A DNA stretch of 35,163 nt from Acidimicrobiales bacterium (GTDB lineage Bacteria; Actinomycetota; Acidimicrobiia; Acidimicrobiales; SZUA-35): NCBI GenBank assembly GCA_020628305.1, contig JAHDFH010000018.1, forward strand, positions 1 through 35,163. The letters are read 5' to 3'. Positions 2,739 through 35,133 of the stretch are shown piece after piece. A program made the translations under genes and the position numbers. The notes under the pieces are model-generated. The model ran no database searches and was not told where the DNA came from. It saw only the letters and a list, made by a program, of their open reading frames with translations. The first letter of the stretch is position 1. Every line of letters starts with the position of its first letter.

Positions 2739-4739
2739 TTACTTAACTGGGCATGCACCTGATGCACACTCATCACTAGACGCCGCGAAATTCTTTTTGC
2801 CGGTCTTCGCTAGCGTTTGGTATTCGGACTTTGTTAGGCGCTCATACGGTGCTTGTGGGCGTGAACCGTCTGGCATCACGGTTGTGCCTTTGAGATACTC
2901 AATATTGTCCCACAAAGCAGAATGAAGTCGACCTGGATCTAACTTATCTGGGTTGAAATTCACGGTAAACGACACGGCGTTGTCAGACCAGAATTCTTGG
3001 ACCATCCGCTGAACAGCCAGCATGTCTTCAATTCCGATGTCTTCGACTGATTCAACAAGGTAGTGACGATTTTCGTCAACGTTGAGGAAGATCTCATCTT
3101 CGCAGATGAAGTTCACAACCGTTGTGTTCTCGCTGTAGCGACAAGGCTCTGTTGTGATTTCAGGATCTGTAACAAATTTAACGAGCGCCGGATCGTCATT
3201 AGCGTACCTGACGCGTCGAATGAAGTACTTCGCGTATATTGGATGGATGCCTTCACTGACGCCAGGAAGCTTTGCGATAGTGCCAGTGGGTGCGATGGTC
3301 GTCACTTTGATCGGTTCTGGAATACCGAGCTGCTCAGAGTAAAGAACCGCCTCATTACGGACAATTGCTTGCATCCTAAGAAGCTCTTGCTCGATCCGAA
3401 GATCTCCGCCTGCGTCCGAATACTTCACACCGAATCGGTTGATACACCATTCCTGGAAACCGAACAGCCCTACACCGATTCTTCGGTTGCGGTCTACGAC
3501 CTCCTTGGTCTTGTCTGTAGTGTCTGCGAACGTTGCACGGATCAAGAACCTGGTCATCAACCGAAGGCAGTCGTTCAAGTAGCGCACGTCACCATCGCTG
3601 TCTTCCATCTGCGCGAGATTGACGTGTCCTAGATTACAAGGCTCCCAATCTTCGAGCGCTATCTCTCCGCAAGGATTGCTGCTCCGTACGTCACCGTTCT
3701 CGCCTTCAGATGCTGCGAATGAGTTGTAGAGTCCAGGCTCTCCATTCGCGTACGCCGACTTGCTGACTGCGGCTTTAAGATCTAGCCCACGCATCGTGTG
3801 TTGGCCGAAATCGAACCAGTCTTTGTCGAGCTCGACTGAGATGTTTGTCGTCCAGTGCTCTCCAGTATCTTGTTTGCAATTGATGAAATCAAATATTGCG
3901 TCATCATTCCAATGCATTATCGACATTCTGGCAGATCGCCGGACGTTGCCTGAGATGACACAGCGAGCGATATGGTGGTCGATCATCATTGCTTCGCTCC
4001 AAGAGAGCCGGTCGCTTGACGTACGATTGACAATAACATCATTTACTGATCTCAGCATGTCGGCCAATGGTCCAGGCCCAGATGCTGTCCCACCAAATCC
4101 TTTGATTGCGGTGCCTCGAGATCTCACTTTCGAGAGGTTGATCGTGATGCCTTCTCGCTCGTAATTCTGGTGGACGTCTAGAAGTGCTTTCAACGCGCCG
4201 ACCCAACCTTCTCGAGAATCATCGACGAGGAAAGTACCAACTTTGCCCTTTGATCCTGTGTACGAAGGTGGCGAAGGATCTGGATTGACCTCATCGACAT
4301 TAGGATGTTCTGGAACACAGTGGATCCAAAGCTTGACGGGCTTTGCACCATCTGTAAGCTTCGCTTGAGAAACGTATTCTTCAGAGTAGTTTGACCCAAC
4401 ACCTCCACCTTTCATCAGTTCATCAAACATGAAACAGAAATGCTCCGCGAGTGACTTCGTAAACCCAGCTCGAAAGCAGTTGTTCGTGAAGTGCCGGCCT
4501 CGAACTCCTGAGACCCAGAGGTGCCTGCCGGCTGGGATGATGTCAAATGCTTCAATTGATTCTTGAAGAGAGATCCGTTCGAGAACAGTATTTCCTTTCT
4601 TGTTCGACGGCGCGAGTGAGATATTGCCGGCGACAACACGTCTAACCGTGTCGTGCCAATCTTCATCTGTTCCGTCTTCCATTTTCCTAGAGTACGTTCG
4701 TTCGTACACTTCTTGCCCGATCGGGCCCCAATTTGTCAT
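2739..4739 (-). CDS. nrdJ: Class II (adenosylcobalamin-dependent) ribonucleotide reductase, monomeric type
   Basis: A 666-aa protein that reduces ribonucleotides to deoxyribonucleotides, using a radical made from adenosylcobalamin. The N-terminus (GPIGQEVYERTYSRKMEDG) matches the monomeric Lactobacillus leichmannii-type enzyme. The expected active-site set is visible: C88 in NNCFRAG; N355, C357 and E359 in SSNPCGEI, with C357 the predicted thiyl-radical cysteine; and C368 as partner of C88. The spacing C357-C368 is 11, the same as C408-C419 in the Lactobacillus enzyme. The C-terminus carries the shuttle pair in CASGACPVK. It is about 70 residues shorter than that homologue, with no intein. 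AGGAAG lies 4 nt before the ATG, and the terminator-like hairpin at 4755-4789 lies just upstream of that, suggesting attenuated expression. Confidence 0.93.
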   Translation of the reverse strand: MTNWGPIGQEVYERTYSRKMEDGTDEDWHDTVRRVVAGNISLAPSNKKGNTVLERISLQESIEAFDIIPAGRHLWVSGVRGRHFTNNCFRAGFTKSLAEHFCFMFDELMKGGGVGSNYSEEYVSQAKLTDGAKPVKLWIHCVPEHPNVDEVNPDPSPPSYTGSKGKVGTFLVDDSREGWVGALKALLDVHQNYEREGITINLSKVRSRGTAIKGFGGTASGPGPLADMLRSVNDVIVNRTSSDRLSWSEAMMIDHHIARCVISGNVRRSARMSIMHWNDDAIFDFINCKQDTGEHWTTNISVELDKDWFDFGQHTMRGLDLKAAVSKSAYANGEPGLYNSFAASEGENGDVRSSNPCGEIALEDWEPCNLGHVNLAQMEDSDGDVRYLNDCLRLMTRFLIRATFADTTDKTKEVVDRNRRIGVGLFGFQEWCINRFGVKYSDAGGDLRIEQELLRMQAIVRNEAVLYSEQLGIPEPIKVTTIAPTGTIAKLPGVSEGIHPIYAKYFIRRVRYANDDPALVKFVTDPEITTEPCRYSENTTVVNFICEDEIFLNVDENRHYLVESVEDIGIEDMLAVQRMVQEFWSDNAVSFTVNFNPDKLDPGRLHSALWDNIEYLKGTTVMPDGSRPQAPYERLTKSEYQTLAKTGKKNFAASSDECASGACPVK

Positions 4740-4818: not shown

Positions 4819-4977
4819 TTATCTACTCATCAATAAAACAGCGAGCAACAACAATGCTGAGCCGAGCCAATATGTAGCAGGCAGCCACTGGCTGCCGAAC
4901 GAATACAGCATAAACAACAGAACTGATTGCGCGACCATCACTAAGTTTACCATCTTAGCCAATTCGACAACAGACAT
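4819..4977 (-). CDS. Small two-helix membrane protein, 52 aa
   Basis: The frame begins at an ATG that overlaps the stop of the pyrophosphatase gene by 4 nt (ATGA) and runs to a TAA at 4819. The sequence has a short amphipathic start (MSVVELAKMVN), a hydrophobic stretch (about residues 11-27, LVMVAQSVLLFMLYSF), a polar turn GSQWLP, and a second hydrophobic stretch (about 34-50, TYWLGSALLLLAVLLM) ending SR. This is a two-transmembrane hairpin. A perfect 17-nt palindrome (arms GGCAGCCA, 4880-4896) lies inside the coding sequence at the turn. Function unknown; the translational coupling and hydrophobic pattern make it likely to be a real gene. Confidence 0.65.
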   Translation of the reverse strand: MSVVELAKMVNLVMVAQSVLLFMLYSFGSQWLPATYWLGSALLLLAVLLMSR

Positions 4978-5339
4978 CAGAAACCTCGCTGAGTGTAGTT
5001 CGTGGCCATCCGTTCGCGATTGATCCGCATTTTGTTCTGGTATGATTCCTTGACTTCGTCATCGCTGATTTCAAGAGCAACCGCGATGTTGCCAACAAAA
5101 TGCAGCACGTCAACGAGTTCATCGACGACACGCTCCTTATTGTACTCGCCGCGCTTTTTGCTCCATGGCTTCCATGCGACTTCAGCTAGCGACTCTGACA
5201 ATTCGTCAATCGCTGCTAGATGCATCATCGCTAGATAATCAGCAAGCTCGTCTGGATTCTGTCTGAGATCTTCAAAGTCAAAGCCGAAGCTTTCAACCTG
5301 TAAGATCTCAGTTTCTTCAAGCCAGTTGGGGATAGGCAT
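4977..5339 (-). CDS. All-alpha NTP pyrophosphatase, dUTPase/dCTPase-like (MazG-related)
   Basis: A 120-aa helical protein. It has the paired acidic metal-binding motifs of the dimeric dUTPase/MazG superfamily: E46-x-x-E49 in IDELSESLAE and E74-x-x-D77 in VVDELVDVLHF, with the WKPWSK stretch between them that is typical of dimeric phage dUTPases, and a basic N/K/R helix after them (ESYQNKMRINRER). Family members hydrolyse dUTP (and sometimes dCTP, as in T4 gp56) to the monophosphate and pyrophosphate. Either substrate would feed the TS-family enzyme encoded at 11540-12349: dUMP for a true thymidylate synthase, dCMP for a hydroxymethylase. The start overlaps the SSB stop (TAATG). Fold is confident; substrate is not decided. 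Confidence 0.8.
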   Translation of the reverse strand: MPIPNWLEETEILQVESFGFDFEDLRQNPDELADYLAMMHLAAIDELSESLAEVAWKPWSKKRGEYNKERVVDELVDVLHFVGNIAVALEISDDEVKESYQNKMRINRERMATNYTQRGF

Positions 5340-5845
5340 TAGCTGCTGAATGGAGCTTCGGGCGGCGCTGACGTTTCAGGCGCTGCAGCTGGAGGAACAT
5401 CAGCTACTGGTGGAGGATTGTTTGATGACGCAGGCGCGTTCTCGACTTCTGCATCACTTGGGCGGATGTCTGCAACGTCAGCTTGAGCTTGTCCTTGCCA
5501 CTCGCGATGTTTCACGGTAATCTCGATCACATTGCCGAGAATTCGCTCGCACTGCTCGACTTCTGAAAGTGATTTCAAAAGGTCCTTAGTGAGGCCTAGA
5601 GCCGCAAGATGTCGAAGCCCGATCGATAGCGCTACAGGACTTTCTGGCGATATAACGATGTTTCCGAAGATTAGCTTGCCGCGTTCAGGCCCGGCAGAGA
5701 TCTCGAAACGATACGCGAGCATCGACTTTCCGCTCTTCGTTTCCTTCCACTCTGCAGACTTCACAAACGCGACGTAGTCACCCGGTGGTGCTGGAGAGAA
5801 GTCTTCTGCGTTGTCGAACATTTCGTCCCAATTAACTTGTACCAT
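5339..5845 (-). CDS. Phage single-stranded DNA-binding protein (DUF669-like)
   Basis: A 168-aa protein. Its first 110 residues (WDEMFDNAEDFSPAPPGDYVAFVKSAEWKETKSG, then a beta-rich core) resemble the DUF669 / phage SSB-like family that accompanies Sak4-type ATPases. The last 35 residues are a disordered Pro/Ala-rich tail ending PPEAPFSS, similar in kind to the flexible C-terminal tails by which SSBs recruit partners, although it lacks the usual acidic tip. It begins 14 nt inside the end of the Sak4-like gene and ends overlapping the pyrophosphatase start. The role in coating replication and recombination intermediates is inferred from family and context. Confidence 0.7.
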   Translation of the reverse strand: MVQVNWDEMFDNAEDFSPAPPGDYVAFVKSAEWKETKSGKSMLAYRFEISAGPERGKLIFGNIVISPESPVALSIGLRHLAALGLTKDLLKSLSEVEQCERILGNVIEITVKHREWQGQAQADVADIRPSDAEVENAPASSNNPPPVADVPPAAAPETSAPPEAPFSS

Positions 5846-6569
5846 TGCTGTTCATACTTTCTATGTTGTCTGACATTTTCTGAATGATGTTCACGATGTT
5901 TGGATCCCAAACGACGTCTGGCCATTCGCCAGGAAATCTATTCCCAGCATCAACTCTACCATCACCGAGGATCCTTAGTCCACGGCGATTGTTTCCTTGG
6001 TCGTCTTTCATTGTGTAGAGAAATGCTGTCGCGTCGAGTTTGTACGAGAGCTTGTCTTTCATTGCTCCTTGTAACATCGGCCGCGATTTGCCATCGCGAA
6101 ACTGAGTCCCAGCGATGACAATGAAACACTGAAGCTGCGGTTGTCGCTCAACGCAGTCTCGAAGCGTCATGATCATGTCTTCGATTTTGATCAAAATCTT
6201 GCCCCAGTCGCGCTGTTCAAGATCTCCTGTTGCCGAGATCTCTCGCTTCAACCGCGACTGATATTCAGTGACAGAATCGAGAACCACCGACGCGAACGGT
6301 GTTCCACCCTTCTTGATGTATGAAACGACGGTATCAAGTGCGACTGTTGAATTGATGATCACCTGGCAGATGTCGTGGTCTTCCATCGCCGGTGGATCTT
6401 CTTTCATTGGGTCCCAAACGACTTTGCGTCCCGGGACAAACCGCATTCCGCCGGCTTCTGCATCTAAGAACAACACCGGCCCTGGAGCAGTCGAGCCAAG
6501 GAATGTCTTCCCAACCTTCGAATCGCCGTGCACGAGCATTGTAATATATGCGTCTGGGCTAATCGTCAT
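5832..6569 (-). CDS. Sak4-like RecA-fold ATPase
   Basis: A 245-aa P-loop ATPase starting at MTISPD; an upstream in-frame extension rich in Cys and His lies over the neighbouring gene and is discarded. Walker A is HGDSKVGKT near residue 12, followed by the PVLFLDAEAGG strand usual in phage Sak4/AAA_24 proteins. A Walker B-like strand is FASVVLDSVTEY, and a later strand FIVIAGTQ may be the sensor. Sak4 proteins are single-strand annealing or RecA-like recombinases that work with a phage SSB, which is the next gene. The start overlaps the stop of the small membrane protein gene by 4 nt. Part of a recombination block with SNF2, Cas4-like nuclease and RuvC-like genes. Confidence 0.85.
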   Translation of the reverse strand: MTISPDAYITMLVHGDSKVGKTFLGSTAPGPVLFLDAEAGGMRFVPGRKVVWDPMKEDPPAMEDHDICQVIINSTVALDTVVSYIKKGGTPFASVVLDSVTEYQSRLKREISATGDLEQRDWGKILIKIEDMIMTLRDCVERQPQLQCFIVIAGTQFRDGKSRPMLQGAMKDKLSYKLDATAFLYTMKDDQGNNRRGLRILGDGRVDAGNRFPGEWPDVVWDPNIVNIIQKMSDNIESMNSNGTS

Positions 6570-6739
6570 TTCAAAGCCTTGCTGATGCCCGCAGTGATGA
6601 TGTTGAATACCACAACGACGGCAACAGACTCGTACCAACGAACATCAGCAAACAAGTTAATAACTGTGTGTGCTGCTAGGACAGCGATGACAAAGAAGGC
6701 GATCGAGACTCCTACAATGAAACTAACTGATTTTACCAT
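6566..6739 (-). CDS. Small two-helix membrane protein, 57 aa
   Basis: The start is the ATG at 6739 (MVKSVSF), which has GAAAGGT 7 nt upstream; the longer frame reaching back to 6901 only shadows the nuclease gene. The protein has two hydrophobic segments (about residues 4-26, SVSFIVGVSIAFFVIAVLAA, and 36-52, YESVAVVVVFNIITAGI) separated by a short loop with charged residues (FADVRW). It overlaps the nuclease gene by 17 nt and the Sak4-like gene by 4 nt. Function unknown; one of six such hairpin proteins in the window. Confidence 0.7.
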   Translation of the reverse strand: MVKSVSFIVGVSIAFFVIAVLAAHTVINLFADVRWYESVAVVVVFNIITAGISKALK

Positions 6740-7637
6740 TTTTGTACCTTTCAAATTGCTTTCCTGAATCATACCAATCGGAGATGAAATCTTCAACCCG
6801 ACTTCCATCATCGAACATTGGGCAAACCGCCCGGTACTGACACGCCCAACTGCAGTCTTTCGAAGGTGTTGGGTATACCACAGAGTGGTGTGCAGCACCA
6901 CCGTCTAGCTTTACTCTGACTTCGTGGATGTCACGGACCATGCCACGAAGCCGCGCTTTGTACGCTTCTATCTGGTGGTCGTTGAATTCGTACTGGTGTT
7001 CACTGTAGAACTCTCCGCACTTCCCGTCGTCACTGAGTGTCCGATCTGTTCGTTTAGACTTCTTCAGCATTCGCCAGATGCCACCAACAGGCACATCTCC
7101 ATTGTTCAGCTTCAGAATCAATGAGTAGTGCAAGAACTGTTCATTGAGCTCTGCCTGTGTTTCAATGTCCGTGAAGTTGCCAACTGTTTTGTAGTCCTTA
7201 AAAAAAATGTTTCCGGACTCGTCGACGACACGCTCGTCAAGCTTTCCGCGTAACGTGGTGCCTTCAAATTCAGCTTCAATGAGCTGCTCAGCTTCGACAG
7301 CAGTGAGCCATTGGTCTGCACCGGTTTCTTCGAGCCATTGGAAGTATCCTTCGATCATGATCTGCGCCTGCTCAGCTTGTGCTTCGTAGTCATCAATGTA
7401 ATCAGGATTATCAGCAAATCGCTCGTTTACATCAGCCACAAACTCACTGAGAGTGTCTTCCCAGCTTTCTCCGTTGTGGTCTGCTTCAAGAGCTACGTGG
7501 ACGAGTGAGCCTAAGCTCGCAGCAGACGGCTTCTGGTATTCTTCTTTCAATCGCAATCCACGATACTCTGAAAGCCACCATTTACGTCGGCAAGTCCGAA
7601 ACGTTCGCAGCTCTGACTGCGTGATTGTCATTGTCAT
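6723..7637 (-). CDS. PD-(D/E)XK exonuclease, Cas4/RecB-like with probable Fe-S cluster
   Basis: A 304-aa nuclease. The order of motifs is that of Cas4/AddB-type enzymes: C16 in FRTCRRKWW; H47 in GSLVHVALEA; D134 in GKLDERV; D148-Y-K150 in FFKDYKT; and a C-terminal cysteine group in CSWACQYRAVCPMF. The early cysteine plus the late three would bind a 4Fe-4S cluster. Such enzymes resect DNA ends to give single strands for annealing or recombination. The start overlaps the SNF2 stop by 4 nt (a second ATG lies two codons later). Neighbours (SNF2, Sak4-like, SSB) support a role in recombination-dependent replication. There is no CRISPR array in the window, so no role in spacer uptake is implied. 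Confidence 0.85.
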   Translation of the reverse strand: MTMTITQSELRTFRTCRRKWWLSEYRGLRLKEEYQKPSAASLGSLVHVALEADHNGESWEDTLSEFVADVNERFADNPDYIDDYEAQAEQAQIMIEGYFQWLEETGADQWLTAVEAEQLIEAEFEGTTLRGKLDERVVDESGNIFFKDYKTVGNFTDIETQAELNEQFLHYSLILKLNNGDVPVGGIWRMLKKSKRTDRTLSDDGKCGEFYSEHQYEFNDHQIEAYKARLRGMVRDIHEVRVKLDGGAAHHSVVYPTPSKDCSWACQYRAVCPMFDDGSRVEDFISDWYDSGKQFERYKNGKIS

Positions 7638-9379
7638 AACATTTCCTTTAAGCTGTCGCGGGTAATTTCATCGAGCTTTGCTGTCTTGTCTCCGAAAACT
7701 TCGTGTGTCCGCTCATCGATGGTGTCTGTTGCGATGATATCAATAATCGTAATATTGTCTGCGGTTTGTCCAACGCGGTTGTTGCGATCTTCTGCTTGGC
7801 GGTTTTCAATCATCGACCAGGTGCGATTCAAGAAAATCATAACTGTTGCGGCAGTCAACGTCACGCCTTCGCTCACTGATTGCGTCGTCGCTAGGAAGAC
7901 TTTCCGCTGGCCTTGCTGGAACTTCTCGATTTCAACTTCTCGCGCGATGCCAGTGACATCACCGGTTACAAATGAGTAAGAGTACGGATCACGTTTCCCG
8001 GCTTTAGAGTTGTTGTGTTTGTCGAGTGCGTCCTTAGCAAGGTGCAAAAGCTGTTTTGACCCTGAAAACACGATCACCTGCTCATCGCCGATATCACTAA
8101 GAATCGCTAGCATTTCGGCGACCTTGGGTGATGGGTTAGTCATCACAAACCGTTCAGGCTCTCCCTCTGGGGTTTCTAGTTGTTCTAGAGGCGCTGAAGC
8201 TAGTTGGATGAGTCTCTGCGCTGCAACAAGTGGATTGACAGCAGAAACAAATCCTCCGTCGATCTTAGCGATCAGATCATCTCGCATTGCCTTGTATACT
8301 TTACGGTGCTTCGGAGGAAGTGTCACATGGCGCTCAATGTTTGAAACTTCAATCTTCCGATCCATGATCTCTTGCTTTGTACGTCGAATGAACATGCTGT
8401 CGAGCAGGTGATAGAATTCTTGCTGATTCTCAGGTTCTAGGCCCGTGATATCCATTCCGCCAAAAGGTGAGTACCTGGTCGCGCAGTAACGCTCGACGTA
8501 TGCTCCTTTGGATGGAAACTCATCTGGTGCAATAAAGTGCAGCAGCGCCCATAGATCTCCTGGGTGGTTGCCAATTGGAGTTCCTGTGAGAGCGATCCGG
8601 TGTTCGGCGTCAAGCTTCCATATTGCTCGAGTCCACTTTGATTTCGGCGACTTCATGCGGTGAGCCTCGTCGGCTATGATGTAATCAAACTTGACATCGT
8701 TCAGATCTTTGTCAACTTTCTCTTTGTCCGAAAGCCGAATGTTGCCGTAGCCTTTCAGGCGAGAGTGCGACTTGAGAAGATCCCAGTTCATAATCAGCAC
8801 GGCACCTGGTGTCGACTTAGCTTCCGCGATTATCTTCTCACGTGTCTTCACTCCGCCATCAACGACAAATGGCGTGAAGTCTGTCCAATGCTCAATGTGC
8901 TTTTTCCATGATGGTTTGACAGACTTAGGGCAAACCACGAGTGACATTCCATCAGGCGACATCTCCATTTGAAGAAGCGCCGATGTCATAACGGTCTTAC
9001 CTGCGCCCATGTCATCTGCCATAAGAGCCGATCCAGCTGCCTTGAGAAACTCAACACCGGTTGTCTGGAGAGGTAGCAGCTCACCACCTTTGACCTTAAG
9101 AGGCGCGCCGGGAGCATCTTTCGCGCTTGCTACCTGTTGGCTTCGCTCGTATCCTTCGCGGCTGAGAGTCTTTATCGCGTCGTCTACTTCAATCTTGTGT
9201 CCAGCGAACACTTTCGCGAGCTGGACACACGCCGTGTATGTAGCTGGTAACAGCCAACGTTTCTGCTTCGCGCTGTATCGAGCGCCCGGCACCTGTTTGA
9301 TGACATGTGTTTCGCGGAAGAGTGTTTCGACTGCGACGTACTTACGATTTCTGTGTTCAAAGATTTCAGCTTTCGCCAT
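7634..9379 (-). CDS. SNF2-family DNA helicase/translocase
   Basis: A 581-aa superfamily 2 ATPase. The N-terminal 90 residues contain a small domain (YSAKQKRWLLPATY) like the HARP-type segment of annealing helicases. The helicase core then shows Walker A at about 121-129 (ADDMGAGKT), DEAH at 237-240, LTGTP at 264-268, a TGDVTG strand and the final motif QAEDRNNRVGQT. Members of this phage family remodel forks or displace proteins from DNA. The ATG at 9379 has AGAAAGG 7 nt upstream and overlaps the RuvC-like gene by 14 nt. Its place among polymerase, resolvase and nuclease genes indicates a replication or recombination role. Confidence 0.92.
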   Translation of the reverse strand: MAKAEIFEHRNRKYVAVETLFRETHVIKQVPGARYSAKQKRWLLPATYTACVQLAKVFAGHKIEVDDAIKTLSREGYERSQQVASAKDAPGAPLKVKGGELLPLQTTGVEFLKAAGSALMADDMGAGKTVMTSALLQMEMSPDGMSLVVCPKSVKPSWKKHIEHWTDFTPFVVDGGVKTREKIIAEAKSTPGAVLIMNWDLLKSHSRLKGYGNIRLSDKEKVDKDLNDVKFDYIIADEAHRMKSPKSKWTRAIWKLDAEHRIALTGTPIGNHPGDLWALLHFIAPDEFPSKGAYVERYCATRYSPFGGMDITGLEPENQQEFYHLLDSMFIRRTKQEIMDRKIEVSNIERHVTLPPKHRKVYKAMRDDLIAKIDGGFVSAVNPLVAAQRLIQLASAPLEQLETPEGEPERFVMTNPSPKVAEMLAILSDIGDEQVIVFSGSKQLLHLAKDALDKHNNSKAGKRDPYSYSFVTGDVTGIAREVEIEKFQQGQRKVFLATTQSVSEGVTLTAATVMIFLNRTWSMIENRQAEDRNNRVGQTADNITIIDIIATDTIDERTHEVFGDKTAKLDEITRDSLKEML

Positions 9380-9827
9380 CAATAAACCTTTCTGCTTCGA
9401 TCTGTTTTGTTTGCCAGAGGTATGCTAGCAAATGACGCTTAGCGTCGTTCTCATGATTATTGCCGGGCGTCCACCATCCTAACGCTTTCAACTTGTCGTC
9501 GGTCGCGAAAGACTTTATGTTACGCGACTGTATCACTAGTGGATTAAACACCCGTGGATTGTTATGCGTGATGTGGTAGAGTATTCCGATCAAATAAAGT
9601 GATTCATACTGCCGAGCTTTGCGGATGGTTTCCTGTGTGATCTTGAAATCTTCGCACACGACAGTGATCTTGTTCTGGAAGAACGTGCGTTCGACTCGGC
9701 GCCCAAACGTCTTGAAGTCATTGTGCGTTCCGCTGCACAAAATATCTTCTGATACCACGTCATACATCACCCAGCCGGTGGCTTTGCCGGGGTCAACAGC
9801 GAGCACCGGCTTGATAAGCTCATGCAT
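9366..9827 (-). CDS. RuvC-like Holliday junction resolvase / RNase H-fold nuclease
   Basis: A 153-aa RNase H-fold protein. The start MHELIKP at 9827 overlaps the polymerase stop by 8 nt and has GGTGAG upstream. The acidic residues of RuvC-type resolvases are visible: D12 in LAVDPGKATGW, E59 in VVCEDFK, and D128 in NHENDAKRHLLAYL, after a helix with QYESLYLIG. Known relatives cut four-way junctions and branched replication intermediates before packaging. It is between the polymerase and SNF2 genes in one reading unit. The family assignment is firm; the exact substrate is inferred. Confidence 0.85.
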   Translation of the reverse strand: MHELIKPVLAVDPGKATGWVMYDVVSEDILCSGTHNDFKTFGRRVERTFFQNKITVVCEDFKITQETIRKARQYESLYLIGILYHITHNNPRVFNPLVIQSRNIKSFATDDKLKALGWWTPGNNHENDAKRHLLAYLWQTKQIEAERFIDGES

Positions 9828-11547
9828 AGTTCTCACCCCATCGATCAACGATCGATCCATCAACAGTGAGAGGTACTGGCAAGCATTCCTCGTTGTCGAC
9901 GGTCATAACGTCCTTCGCATCACGAAGGACGTCTTCAGCGATGTCTTCAGGGACGTCGAAAATTATTTCGTCGTGCACCGGTAGAACCAGGAATTCACCG
10001 AAACCTGCAGCGACAAGCTCTGCTATTTTCATCTTGAGGATGTCAGCGCCCGTTCCCTGGATCACATAGTTGATTAGTTTGTACGAGGCATCAGGCCAGC
10101 AGGGCTGGATGCGACCGAAAGCAGTTTGTGCGAACACTCGGCCGTTAGACATTCGGTTCTCACTCGCTCGACTCTCGAGTTGCTTCTGGAACTGCTTCAA
10201 CCCAGGGTACAGGTCGTTGTATGCCCACATGAACTCTTTAGCTTCCTTCAGACTGATGCCTGCTGTCTCCGCGAGAACTTTCGGGCCTCCAGCGAAAAGC
10301 GTCGCGTACACTGCGTTCTTAGTGATCTGCCGTTGCTGTTTCGTGATCTGGTCAACTCCGAAAATCTTGCAGCCCGCGTGTGTATGGATGTCTTCTTGAG
10401 TCGCAATGTCTTCCATCAAACCGACGTCTCGTGATAACGACGCAGCTATGCGGAGCTCCATCTGGTCGTAGTCAATCAGAACTAGTTTGTTGCCTTCGCT
10501 CGCAGTGAATGCATTGCGGACCAATGCTTCACGCGGGATCTGTTGAAGCGCTGGATTAGACACACTCATCCGCCCGGTGATAGCCGCCAAGGGATTGATG
10601 CTTGCGTGTACGTATCCATCATCGTCGACGTTGTCTACAATGTTGCTGAAGTACGCTTTGATGACCTTTTCGGCGTGCTTCATAGACACCACGGCTTTCG
10701 CAAGAGGATGATCGATCTTCTCGAGAACACCCTTGGCGACTGAAGGCTTGCCAGTGGGCGTAAACTCTGTCGGAGTCCAGCCATCCGCTTTCAGTGCTTC
10801 AGCGAGTTGTTGCGGCGATGTCATATTGAAATCGTCGCCGTACTCTGTTGCTGCCCACGATCGGACTTCACTAACATATTCTGCGAGCTCCGACGACTTC
10901 TCTTTACAGTATGCGACGTCTGCTTTGAAGCCTCGCAACTCCATGTTCATCAATGCAATTTGCGCAGACATCTCAACATCGTATAGCCCGCGGTGCTGCC
11001 CCATTTCGTCTTCGAGGCGATCGTAAAGCCGAGCAGTCAAAACCGTGTCTAACGCACCATACTGCCAGTATTCTGGACAGTCGTACGGGATTGTTGCCCA
11101 GTCCCATCCGTTGGACTTAATAATAGCCGACAGGTCCTTCTGGCTTGCGGACATCCCAGGGCCAAAGTATGCGTCGCAAAGTGGTTTGAGTCCGGTGGGT
11201 CTGTGTGGGTCGATCAGATGTGCCATCGTCCGTGTGTCATCGATTGAGTTCACCCGCGGGTGGATGTCCGACTTGATTAGAAACTGCGTGTCAAATTTGA
11301 AGTTGTGCATCGCGATTCGGCCGGTATAGTTGTTGAAAATGTCTTCAACCAGACCACTCCAACGATCGAACCGAAGCGCCCAACCTGTCTCAGCATCACC
11401 AAACTGCGCTAGTCTGATTTTGTCTTTCCAAGGCTGAAGACCACTTGTTTCAGTGTCGAAAGCTATCGTGCCTTCGCGGCGCTCACCTAGCCACGACATC
11501 ATCTGATTCGCTTCATCAAACGTCTCAATGTACGTCAACTTAGCCAT
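9820..11547 (-). CDS. Family A DNA polymerase with 3'-5' exonuclease domain
   Basis: A 575-aa replicative polymerase starting MAKLTYIE at 11547, with GGGAG upstream and an 8-nt overlap with the TS-family gene; an upstream start at 11568 is rejected. Proofreading domain: D31-x-E33 in FDTETSG, then HNFKFD and YGALDTVLTARLY. Polymerase motifs: A in LIDYDQMELRIA, B in RQITKNAVYATLFAGG, C in LPVHDEI. There is no 5'-3' exonuclease domain, as in T7-type enzymes. In motif B, counting R-xxx-K-xxx-Y, tyrosine occupies the place of E. coli Phe762, the T7-like state linked to poor discrimination against dideoxynucleotides. The primase-helicase gene lies on the opposite strand at 33045. Confidence 0.95.
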   Translation of the reverse strand: MAKLTYIETFDEANQMMSWLGERREGTIAFDTETSGLQPWKDKIRLAQFGDAETGWALRFDRWSGLVEDIFNNYTGRIAMHNFKFDTQFLIKSDIHPRVNSIDDTRTMAHLIDPHRPTGLKPLCDAYFGPGMSASQKDLSAIIKSNGWDWATIPYDCPEYWQYGALDTVLTARLYDRLEDEMGQHRGLYDVEMSAQIALMNMELRGFKADVAYCKEKSSELAEYVSEVRSWAATEYGDDFNMTSPQQLAEALKADGWTPTEFTPTGKPSVAKGVLEKIDHPLAKAVVSMKHAEKVIKAYFSNIVDNVDDDGYVHASINPLAAITGRMSVSNPALQQIPREALVRNAFTASEGNKLVLIDYDQMELRIAASLSRDVGLMEDIATQEDIHTHAGCKIFGVDQITKQQRQITKNAVYATLFAGGPKVLAETAGISLKEAKEFMWAYNDLYPGLKQFQKQLESRASENRMSNGRVFAQTAFGRIQPCWPDASYKLINYVIQGTGADILKMKIAELVAAGFGEFLVLPVHDEIIFDVPEDIAEDVLRDAKDVMTVDNEECLPVPLTVDGSIVDRWGENYA

Positions 11548-12349
11548 GCAACTCCCGCCGAAGCTCATCTTCGAAACCGCTCAGGTCTTGCGGGTCGTTC
11601 GTCAGGATCCTGCCTGCGGATGCGCGTTTCTCACTGAGTGTGCCGCCCGACAGCCGACTAATGAAGATCTTCGAAGCACCAGACCGAGAATCTAGGAGAC
11701 CGTTGTACTTCTCGAAATCGCGCTCGTACATGTGGAGCGACCCGGCATTGTGAGTGTACTGTCCTTGCTCGACGCCGAGAATGTCTGCGATCTGTTTCTG
11801 CAAGAACGTGAACTGGAACACATCATATGCCAATCCCCACCAGACGTCGTTCGAACGCATCGTGGTCACCATGTGGAGTCGGTCGTCGCGTAGCAAGAAC
11901 TGAAACCCTGTGGTGCATGGTGTGTCACGAACGTCCCCAAAACCATCATACCGCGGGTCCCAAACCGTTATGATCGCTTGACGGGTGTGATTGTCGGACT
12001 TCAGCGCTTCGATCACTTTTGGCAGTTGGTGTTTGATCCGAGGGCCGTATGCCCCATGAAACCACGCCCCGCCGTCTGTAAAGTTCTTGAAGTTCGGAAA
12101 CTTCGAGATCATCAAGTCAGGATGCGATTCTCCAGCGAAAAGTTGTAGAGCCTCAGCGATACCAATTGCGGCGTTGCAGGACCTTCCTACACCAGTAGGC
12201 ATATCAGGAAACGCGTCATTGAAAACAATTGAAGCCCCGAGAATTTCCGCCGTGTGTATGCCACGCGGAGAAGACATCACTCCCTGCTTAAGCACTGTCC
12301 CGACGATGTCTTTGTATCCGGTTGCGATACTACCGACTTGAATGCGCAT
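11540..12349 (-). CDS. Thymidylate-synthase-family enzyme, possibly dCMP hydroxymethylase
   Basis: A 269-aa ThyA-fold enzyme. Catalytic C145 lies in TPCTTGFQF, R165 and D168 in MRSND, and H206 in SLHMY. Distances from the cysteine (20, 23 and 61) are the same as in E. coli ThyA for R166, D169 and H207. E66 in IAEALQLF fits E58. The residue 31 after the cysteine, Asn177 in E. coli (GLPFN), is here D176 (GLAYD). Asp at this place is the mark of dCMP-specific members such as T4 dCMP hydroxymethylase, and an Asn-to-Asp change at the equivalent site switches thymidylate synthase toward dCMP. The enzyme may therefore make 5-hydroxymethyl-dCMP or 5-methyl-dCMP. It overlaps the kinase gene by 20 nt and the polymerase gene by 8 nt. 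Confidence 0.85.
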   Translation of the reverse strand: MRIQVGSIATGYKDIVGTVLKQGVMSSPRGIHTAEILGASIVFNDAFPDMPTGVGRSCNAAIGIAEALQLFAGESHPDLMISKFPNFKNFTDGGAWFHGAYGPRIKHQLPKVIEALKSDNHTRQAIITVWDPRYDGFGDVRDTPCTTGFQFLLRDDRLHMVTTMRSNDVWWGLAYDVFQFTFLQKQIADILGVEQGQYTHNAGSLHMYERDFEKYNGLLDSRSGASKIFISRLSGGTLSEKRASAGRILTNDPQDLSGFEDELRRELHG

Positions 12350-12854
12350 GCGCGTAATTGTCCTTTGCCATTGTGATGATTGCAGCCACAGCGGTGTCTG
12401 TGCTCACCTTCGTCGTGTTTATTTGTAAGTGAGAGAATGTCTGAGCACTTGCGTCTAGCCTTGCGTACGAGTGCATGATCGCACTTATGTCGTCGATCTC
12501 GATGTATTCTCCATCATACCGTTCAACGAGCGTTGGTAGATTGGCAGTGACATGTACGATTGTCCCTCCGCACCGATTGATTTCAGACTCTAAATAGCCG
12601 AACTGTGCGCTGTTCAAAGCGCGCCCAACTTCCGGACGATACAACTCCGCGTACACTGCATCGCCCCAATGGAGTCGATCACAAATCACTGTCGCGCCTT
12701 TGCGCGCCAAATCAACAACAGCATTCCATTGTTTGAAAGCCTCGCCAACGGGCGCAGGACCGTTGTGTATGTATATCGCGTTAAGCCTTGCTTGCAGCTC
12801 TTTCGCGATCGTCGTTTTGCCGGCGCCATCCGGCCCTTCTAACAGTATAAACAT
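12330..12854 (-). CDS. Deoxynucleoside monophosphate kinase (thymidylate-kinase-like)
   Basis: A 174-aa P-loop kinase. Walker A is GPDGAGKTT at residues 7-15, right after the first strand FILLE, and the DR motif of thymidylate-kinase relatives is visible in VICDRLHWGDAVY. A LID-like stretch follows around NLPTLVERYDGEYIEIDD. It would phosphorylate the product of the adjacent TS-family enzyme to the diphosphate, in the same way T4 gp1 handles 5-hydroxymethyl-dCMP, dTMP and dGMP. The ATG at 12854 follows the stop of the previous gene directly. Kinase fold is firm; base preference cannot be read. Confidence 0.85.
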   Translation of the reverse strand: MFILLEGPDGAGKTTIAKELQARLNAIYIHNGPAPVGEAFKQWNAVVDLARKGATVICDRLHWGDAVYAELYRPEVGRALNSAQFGYLESEINRCGGTIVHVTANLPTLVERYDGEYIEIDDISAIMHSYARLDASAQTFSHLQINTTKVSTDTAVAAIITMAKDNYAHAHSSR

Positions 12855-31609: not shown

Positions 31610-31680
31610 AATTTCGGAAAAAGGCTAAACCTTTTGGCGAATTGTGCCGATATACTATTAACGCCAACTTACGGAGAGAA
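31610..31680 (+). promoter_or_regulatory. 71-bp repeated promoter/operator, copy B
   Basis: A diverged copy of 27-97 and 35063-35133. The palindrome core (AAAAGG-CTAAA-CCTTTT, 31619-31635) and the ribosome binding site are kept; the -10 candidate is TATACT (31651-31656), closer to consensus than in the other copies. It stands directly before the secreted protein gene at 31683. Confidence 0.65.
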
Positions 31681-35062: not shown

Positions 35063-35133
35063 AAATTCCAAAAAAGGCTAAACCTTTTGGCTAATTGTGC
35101 CGATAATATATTAACGCCAACTTACGGAGAAAA
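35063..35133 (+). promoter_or_regulatory. 71-bp repeated promoter/operator, copy C
   Basis: Identical over 71 nt to 27-97, with palindrome at 35068-35090 and -10 candidate TAATAT at 35104-35109, ending in the ribosome binding site of the partial gene at 35136. Confidence 0.6.

Follow-up and report, generated by a model that had tools for sequence, protein, structure and literature searches.

The gene at positions 11540 to 12349 (minus strand) of the window, by which we mean the whole stretch of 35,163 nucleotides analysed, is predicted to encode a 269-residue dCMP hydroxymethylase of the thymidylate synthase (TS) superfamily. On sequence grounds we consider it to be a folate-dependent enzyme of the kind that leads to 5-hydroxymethylcytosine (5hmC), and not a methylase, with a probability of roughly 0.84. 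The Pfam match, the alignment and the active-site residues (C145, D176, D142, T146, R123, S166 and D168) strongly support dCMP as its predicted substrate and 5-hydroxymethyl-dCMP (hmdCMP) as its product. The window is the entire contig C63 of a 2.36 Mb genome bin of 132 contigs. It contains terminase, portal, protease, capsid and tail genes and is therefore a tailed phage.

The ORF begins with ATG and overlaps the upstream kinase gene and the downstream polymerase gene by a few codons each. Pfam Thymidylat_synt matched it with an E-value of 2e-21. A sequence-only reading of this DNA had given the same coordinates without a strand; we confirmed them and placed the gene on the minus strand. In an alignment with E. 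coli ThyA (EcTS), C145, R165, D168, D176 and H206 corresponded to C146, R166, D169, N177 and H207, exactly as that reading had claimed, including the Asp at the Asn177 position. The C-terminal tail that caps the folate in TS enzymes was absent: the alignment stops near residue 221 and the last 49 residues are unlike ThyA.

The same reading took Asp176 as the switch to dCMP. The substrate is indeed backed by further positions, by phylogeny and by gene context, but Asp177 (EcTS numbering) is not unique to hydroxymethylases. It is also carried by the TS of phage DLP4 and by the dCMP hydroxylase AfhB, so that Asp176 alone is insufficient to assign an activity. Because this residue is shared with cytosine methylases and AfhB, further positions were compared. 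At EcTS positions 143, 147 and 177 the window enzyme has D/T/D (D142, T146, D176), as do T4 gp42 and the CMP hydroxymethylase MilA. The corresponding codes were L/H/N in ThyA, N/P/D in DLP4 and D/N/N in the dUMP hydroxymethylases of SPO1, a ViI-like phage and an M6-like phage. Positions 147 and 177 have been reported to rank first and second in distinguishing the TS genes of modified-cytosine contigs from other TS genes (PMC8670742), and the Asp three residues before the Cys (Asp145 of T4) has been proposed as a signature of hydroxymethylation that activates the water giving the hydroxyl (PMC6400193). The ribose-pocket residues R123 and S166 (EcTS R126 and S167) are of the deoxyribose type, and D168, G172 and Y208 (EcTS Asp169, Gly173 and Tyr209) are kept. 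From D/T/D, R123/S166 and D168/G172/Y208 together, the window enzyme reads as folate-dependent, deoxy-type, cytosine-directed and hydroxymethylating. The full combination was found in T4 gp42, and not in ThyA, the dUMP hydroxymethylases, the Xp12-group synthase, AfhB or MilA. These positions (143, 147, 169, 173 and 177, plus 126 and 167) tell apart the known activities within a single fold, and annotations could be corrected with their help.

Ser94 of T4 gp42 (Ser94-x-Tyr96) is replaced by Gly99 before Tyr101 in the window enzyme, and Gly is found here in most of its clade (65/68). The equivalent of Ser94 is also missing in the dUMP hydroxymethylases of SPO1 (Ala) and the ViI-like phage (Gly). 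To judge from these sequences, Ser94 is a detail of the T4 branch and hydroxymethylation in general would not require it. EcTS R127 is Gln in the window enzyme, in nearly the whole clade and in some dUMP hydroxymethylases.

We collected 68 distinct sequences, i.e. the window enzyme and 67 relatives from viral contigs. D176 was found in all 68 and Asn at this position in none, D142 was kept in 67, and T146, R123, S166, D168, G172 and Y208 were invariant, with the proviso that the motif MRSNDVW and a D176-containing pattern served as queries in the second contig search, which therefore partly selects for these residues. A plain tblastn search of the phage collection, which has no such pattern bias, agreed, with D176 present in DSL-LC01, GodonK, GMA2, Sixama and phage G. 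Given the complete conservation and its recurrence in these unbiased matches, D176 is not a chance feature. The relatives are annotated as thymidylate synthase or hypothetical protein. A scan of GTDB genome contigs retrieved no relatives of the window enzyme, and megablast of the first 25 kb of the window gave no match among phage records.

In a maximum-likelihood tree of 39 rows, the window enzyme fell into a clade of 18 rows, all with Asp176, with support of 100/99. DLP4 joined ThyA with equally high support (100/99), and the dUMP hydroxymethylases formed a group of their own with moderate support (84/83). T4 gp42 was placed on a long branch outside the window's clade, its exact position being unsure. 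The closest PDB sequence was MilA (~30% identity), followed by the AfhB entries of phage HY126. MilA was also the best solved structure for the AlphaFold model of the window enzyme (pLDDT 86, E 1e-20), ahead of all thymidylate synthases.

The gene lies in a replication cassette that is common to about 90 viral contigs and, in the window, is all on the minus strand. The conserved order is kinase, TS, (dCMP deaminase), PolA, 165-residue protein, SNF2 helicase, PD-(D/E)XK nuclease, AAA_24 and DUF669. In the window, a P-loop kinase with a weak match to the thymidylate-kinase type (12330-12854) is a candidate (hm)dCMP kinase and is followed, beyond the TS gene, by a family A DNA polymerase (PolA) with a 3'-5' exonuclease domain (9820-11568). 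Next come the 165-residue protein (9366-9863), whose DSL-LC01 homologue is annotated as a RuvC-like resolvase, an SNF2-type helicase (7634-9382), a PD-(D/E)XK nuclease (6723-7637), an AAA_24/Sak4-like recombinase (5832-6638) and an SSB-like DUF669 protein (5339-5845). An all-alpha NTP pyrophosphatase (dUTPase_2, 4977-5339), which is a candidate dCTPase, and a class II (adenosylcobalamin) ribonucleoside-triphosphate reductase (RNR, 2739-4739) lie further on. Among 96 related loci, homologues were found of PolA in 93, deaminase in 89, helicase in 87, kinase in 85 and nuclease in 84. The searches for dCMP deaminase in the window gave chance scores only, and none turned up in the close relatives L001-L004 either. 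In L002 and L007 the kinase and TS at first seemed fused, a reading we discarded because their ORFs occupy different frames. PADLOC found nothing of note.

The neighbours named in the sequence-only reading (kinase, PolA, dUTPase_2 and RNR) were thus all present. Its comparison with the T4 set held for dUTPase_2, which is homologous to the T4 dCTPase/dUTPase gp56 (29% identity over 104 columns, single-comparison E 2e-9), but the kinase is thymidylate-kinase-like, and T4-style removal of dCTP is suggested just by the gp56-like protein. A 414-residue protein (1482-2726) with a weak NosD-type (beta-helix) match adjoins the RNR and is possibly a tail spike or receptor-binding protein. A 71-bp repeat was detected at 27-97, 31610-31680 and 35063-35133, two copies being identical and one 89% so. 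With a GGAG-type ribosome-binding sequence at its end, directly upstream of possible ORF starts, it resembles a repeated early promoter-leader. We do not interpret the identical copies close to the two contig ends as a circular overlap, because their flanking sequences are different and there is a third copy in the interior. No closing overlap of the contig ends was found.

The sequence-only reading had left open whether the enzyme is a hydroxymethylase or a methylase. If the enzyme were a dCMP methylase with 5-methyl-dCMP as its product, like that of the Xp12 phage group, the Asp at position 177 would be explained, for the TS of DLP4 has it too. Phage DLP4 is related to the 5-methylcytosine phage Xp12 (PMC9206674) and is the one representative of that group in our comparisons; moreover, an N-to-D change in ThyA leads to dCMP methylation (PMC8670742). 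However, the DLP4 enzyme groups with ThyA and carries Asn and Pro at the positions of D142 and T146 of the window enzyme, and the latter has no TS-type tail. In DLP4 a DHFR gene lies next to those for TS and dCMP deaminase, while no homologue of this DHFR was found in the window or the related loci searched. The lack of a DHFR homologue fits the reaction, since hydroxymethylation returns tetrahydrofolate and not dihydrofolate. We therefore kept the hydroxymethylase half of the earlier alternative and regard the methylase half as highly unlikely. We give similarly little credence to a plain TS, or to an enzyme that hydroxymethylates dUMP, in which Asp176 is tolerated. The relatives' annotation would agree with the former, and a phage ThyA could help if the host is the binned organism, whose bin contains ThyX and no ThyA or other TS. 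(The bin ThyX, G000:C118:4577-5839, is a 552-residue frame with two tandem Thy1 domain matches.) The clade without a single Asn176, the Thr146 and Asp142 that are unlike ThyA, and the missing C-terminal tail all argue against a TS, and the dUMP hydroxymethylases have Asn at both 147 and 177 in place of Thr and Asp.

A flavin-dependent dCMP 5-hydroxylase of the AfhB type would instead make 5-hydroxycytosine, to be glycosylated later. AfhB has Asp at the position of D176 and Thr after the Cys, like the window enzyme, and its PDB entries are the next-best sequence matches after MilA. In other phages, a TS-superfamily 5-hodCMP synthase homologous to the hydroxymethylases supplies the pathway to glycosylated bases (PMC13390438); the AfhB-type enzymes are likely its counterpart, an identification made here. 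In AfhB the pterin-binding Asp is replaced by Asn, Gly172 by Val, Tyr208 by Phe and D142 by Glu, whereas Asp, Gly and Tyr are kept in 68/68 clade sequences and Asp142 in 67/68, leaving this alternative a very slim chance. The chance of a CMP (ribo) hydroxymethylase that serves a small molecule and not DNA appears close to negligible: MilA is the closest solved relative in both sequence and fold, but its ribose preference depends on Lys133 and Ala176 (PMC5175136), R123 and S166 are of the deoxy type in all 68 sequences, and the gene lies within a phage replication cassette.

The relatives provided additional evidence in favour of a dCMP hydroxymethylase. A gene homologous to the 'glycosyltransferase' (GT) of DSL-LC01 starts directly after DUF669 in 42 of the 66 loci that reach that far. 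Searches with members of this family retrieved 101 contigs; 27 of them had enough upstream sequence and 26 of these carry this TS. The genes usually run DUF669, GT, (UDP-galactopyranose mutase in 7), a second GT-like gene and dUTPase_2. Pfam gave no match to the family, and PDB sequences none that was credible. The structure predicted for it (pLDDT 87) was closest to T4 beta-glucosyltransferase (BGT; 1qkj, E 7e-8, TM 0.62, 12% identity), and this BGT-fold protein probably glycosylates the base in about half of the related phages. Co-occurrence of such a GT with the TS supports a hydroxyl on the base in the relatives; by itself it cannot separate 5hmC from 5-hydroxycytosine, which the active-site residues do. 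The UDP-galactopyranose mutase beside the GT suggests that the sugar may be galactofuranose; the DSL-LC01 authors read it as a host cell-wall gene.

Members of the GT family lie beside the hydroxymethylase cassette in DSL-LC01 (L023, 19903-22039), L136, L148, L153 and others. In the phage collection it occurs in 39 records, among them Gordonia phages carrying this TS. Distant members were seen in nineteen Aeromonas phage records (T4-like, e.g. HM452125, 15330-16397), those listed being hypothetical or unnamed phage proteins. The search for the GT in the window gave chance scores only, with dUTPase_2 directly following DUF669 as in L002 and L004, and the DSL-LC01-type gene was not found in the bin. 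Enterococcus phage vipetofem (L040, 1863-4221), which has a Gram-positive host, carries a D/T/D TS-family enzyme one gene from a clear T4 beta-glucosyltransferase homologue (41%, Pfam T4-Gluco-transf 6e-61), both annotated as hypothetical. In Maribacter phage Molly_1 (L032, 1920-2999), the signature of a TS-family enzyme is mixed, with Thr at 147 and Asn at 177, and a 'beta glucosyl transferase' adjoins it.

By analogy with T4 gp42, C145 would attack C6 of dCMP, D176 would hold and protonate the cytosine edge, and C5 would receive a one-carbon unit from methylenetetrahydrofolate. D142 would position the water that then attacks the exocyclic methylene intermediate, giving hmdCMP and tetrahydrofolate. 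The adjoining kinase could phosphorylate hmdCMP, the PolA-family polymerase would incorporate hmdCTP, and the gp56-like pyrophosphatase may remove dCTP. Since the gene is predicted to make hmdCMP, the phage probably builds its DNA with 5hmC as T4 does; its incorporation and the level of replacement we infer. The 5hmC would shield the DNA against restriction. Six-base palindromes containing C were not depleted (observed/expected 1.07), as expected with modified cytosine though not diagnostic of it. Bare 5hmC is our default prediction for the window because the contig, which may be incomplete, lacks both the GT and the usual dCMP deaminase, and it is the simplest reading. A broader scheme is tentative and in our judgement rather doubtful: a large, mostly uncultivated phage lineage in which 5hmC replaces cytosine, many members decorating it through the undescribed BGT-fold family (possibly with galactofuranose where UDP-galactopyranose mutase is adjacent), and in which the window's branch does without this step, whether by loss or from the outset, and packages bare 5hmC.

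Taken by itself, the gene adds a new member to an established enzyme class, and the association with the GT family is the fresher lead, one that would add candidate DNA-glycosylating enzymes. The enzyme occurs on hundreds of viral contigs and in several cultured Gordonia phages, labelled 'thymidylate synthase' or 'hypothetical protein'. If it makes 5hmC, modified cytosine is in use in a large group of phages other than the relatives of T4, with consequences for the restriction, CRISPR and Type IV defences that can act on them. The cultured Gordonia phages make both the 5hmC claim and the GT association directly testable.

Among the known systems, canonical ThyA differs by Asn177 and His147 where the window enzyme has Asp176 and Thr146. 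The DLP4 synthase shares the Asp at 177, but belongs to the ThyA-type branch, with its own pair at 143 and 147 and its DHFR and dCMP deaminase neighbours. AfhB of phage HY126 has the TS fold, Cys-Thr and the same Asp, yet its pterin-binding Asp, Gly173 and Tyr209 are replaced, and it was solved with FAD and dCMP (PDB 9iqc, 9iqu). SPO1 gp29 and its relatives keep the hydroxymethylation Asp (overall identity about 33%) and differ in the Asn at both base-specificity positions, with one extra residue before the Asn. MilA is the closest solved enzyme in sequence (about 30%) and fold and shares D/T/D; MilA and BcmA differ in their ribose-type Lys and Ala, in place of Arg123 and Ser166. DSL-LC01 (an Actinomycetia phage) and the Gordonia phages GodonK, Sixama and GMA2 have an enzyme of the same clade with the same residues, annotated as thymidylate synthase or hypothetical, in the same or a similar cassette, and unlike the window they carry a dCMP deaminase and the BGT-fold gene. 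T4 gp42 lies on another branch, with about 26% identity and Ser94 for Gly, and the T4 system uses the gp43 polymerase where the window has PolA and a thymidylate-kinase-type kinase. In the active site the two enzymes agree in the Cys, the Asp at 177, the Asp three residues before the Cys, the Thr after it and the deoxyribo-type Arg and Ser, and neither has the TS-type C-terminal tail; both systems have a kinase and a gp56-type NTPase, joined in the window's relatives by a BGT-fold glycosyltransferase.
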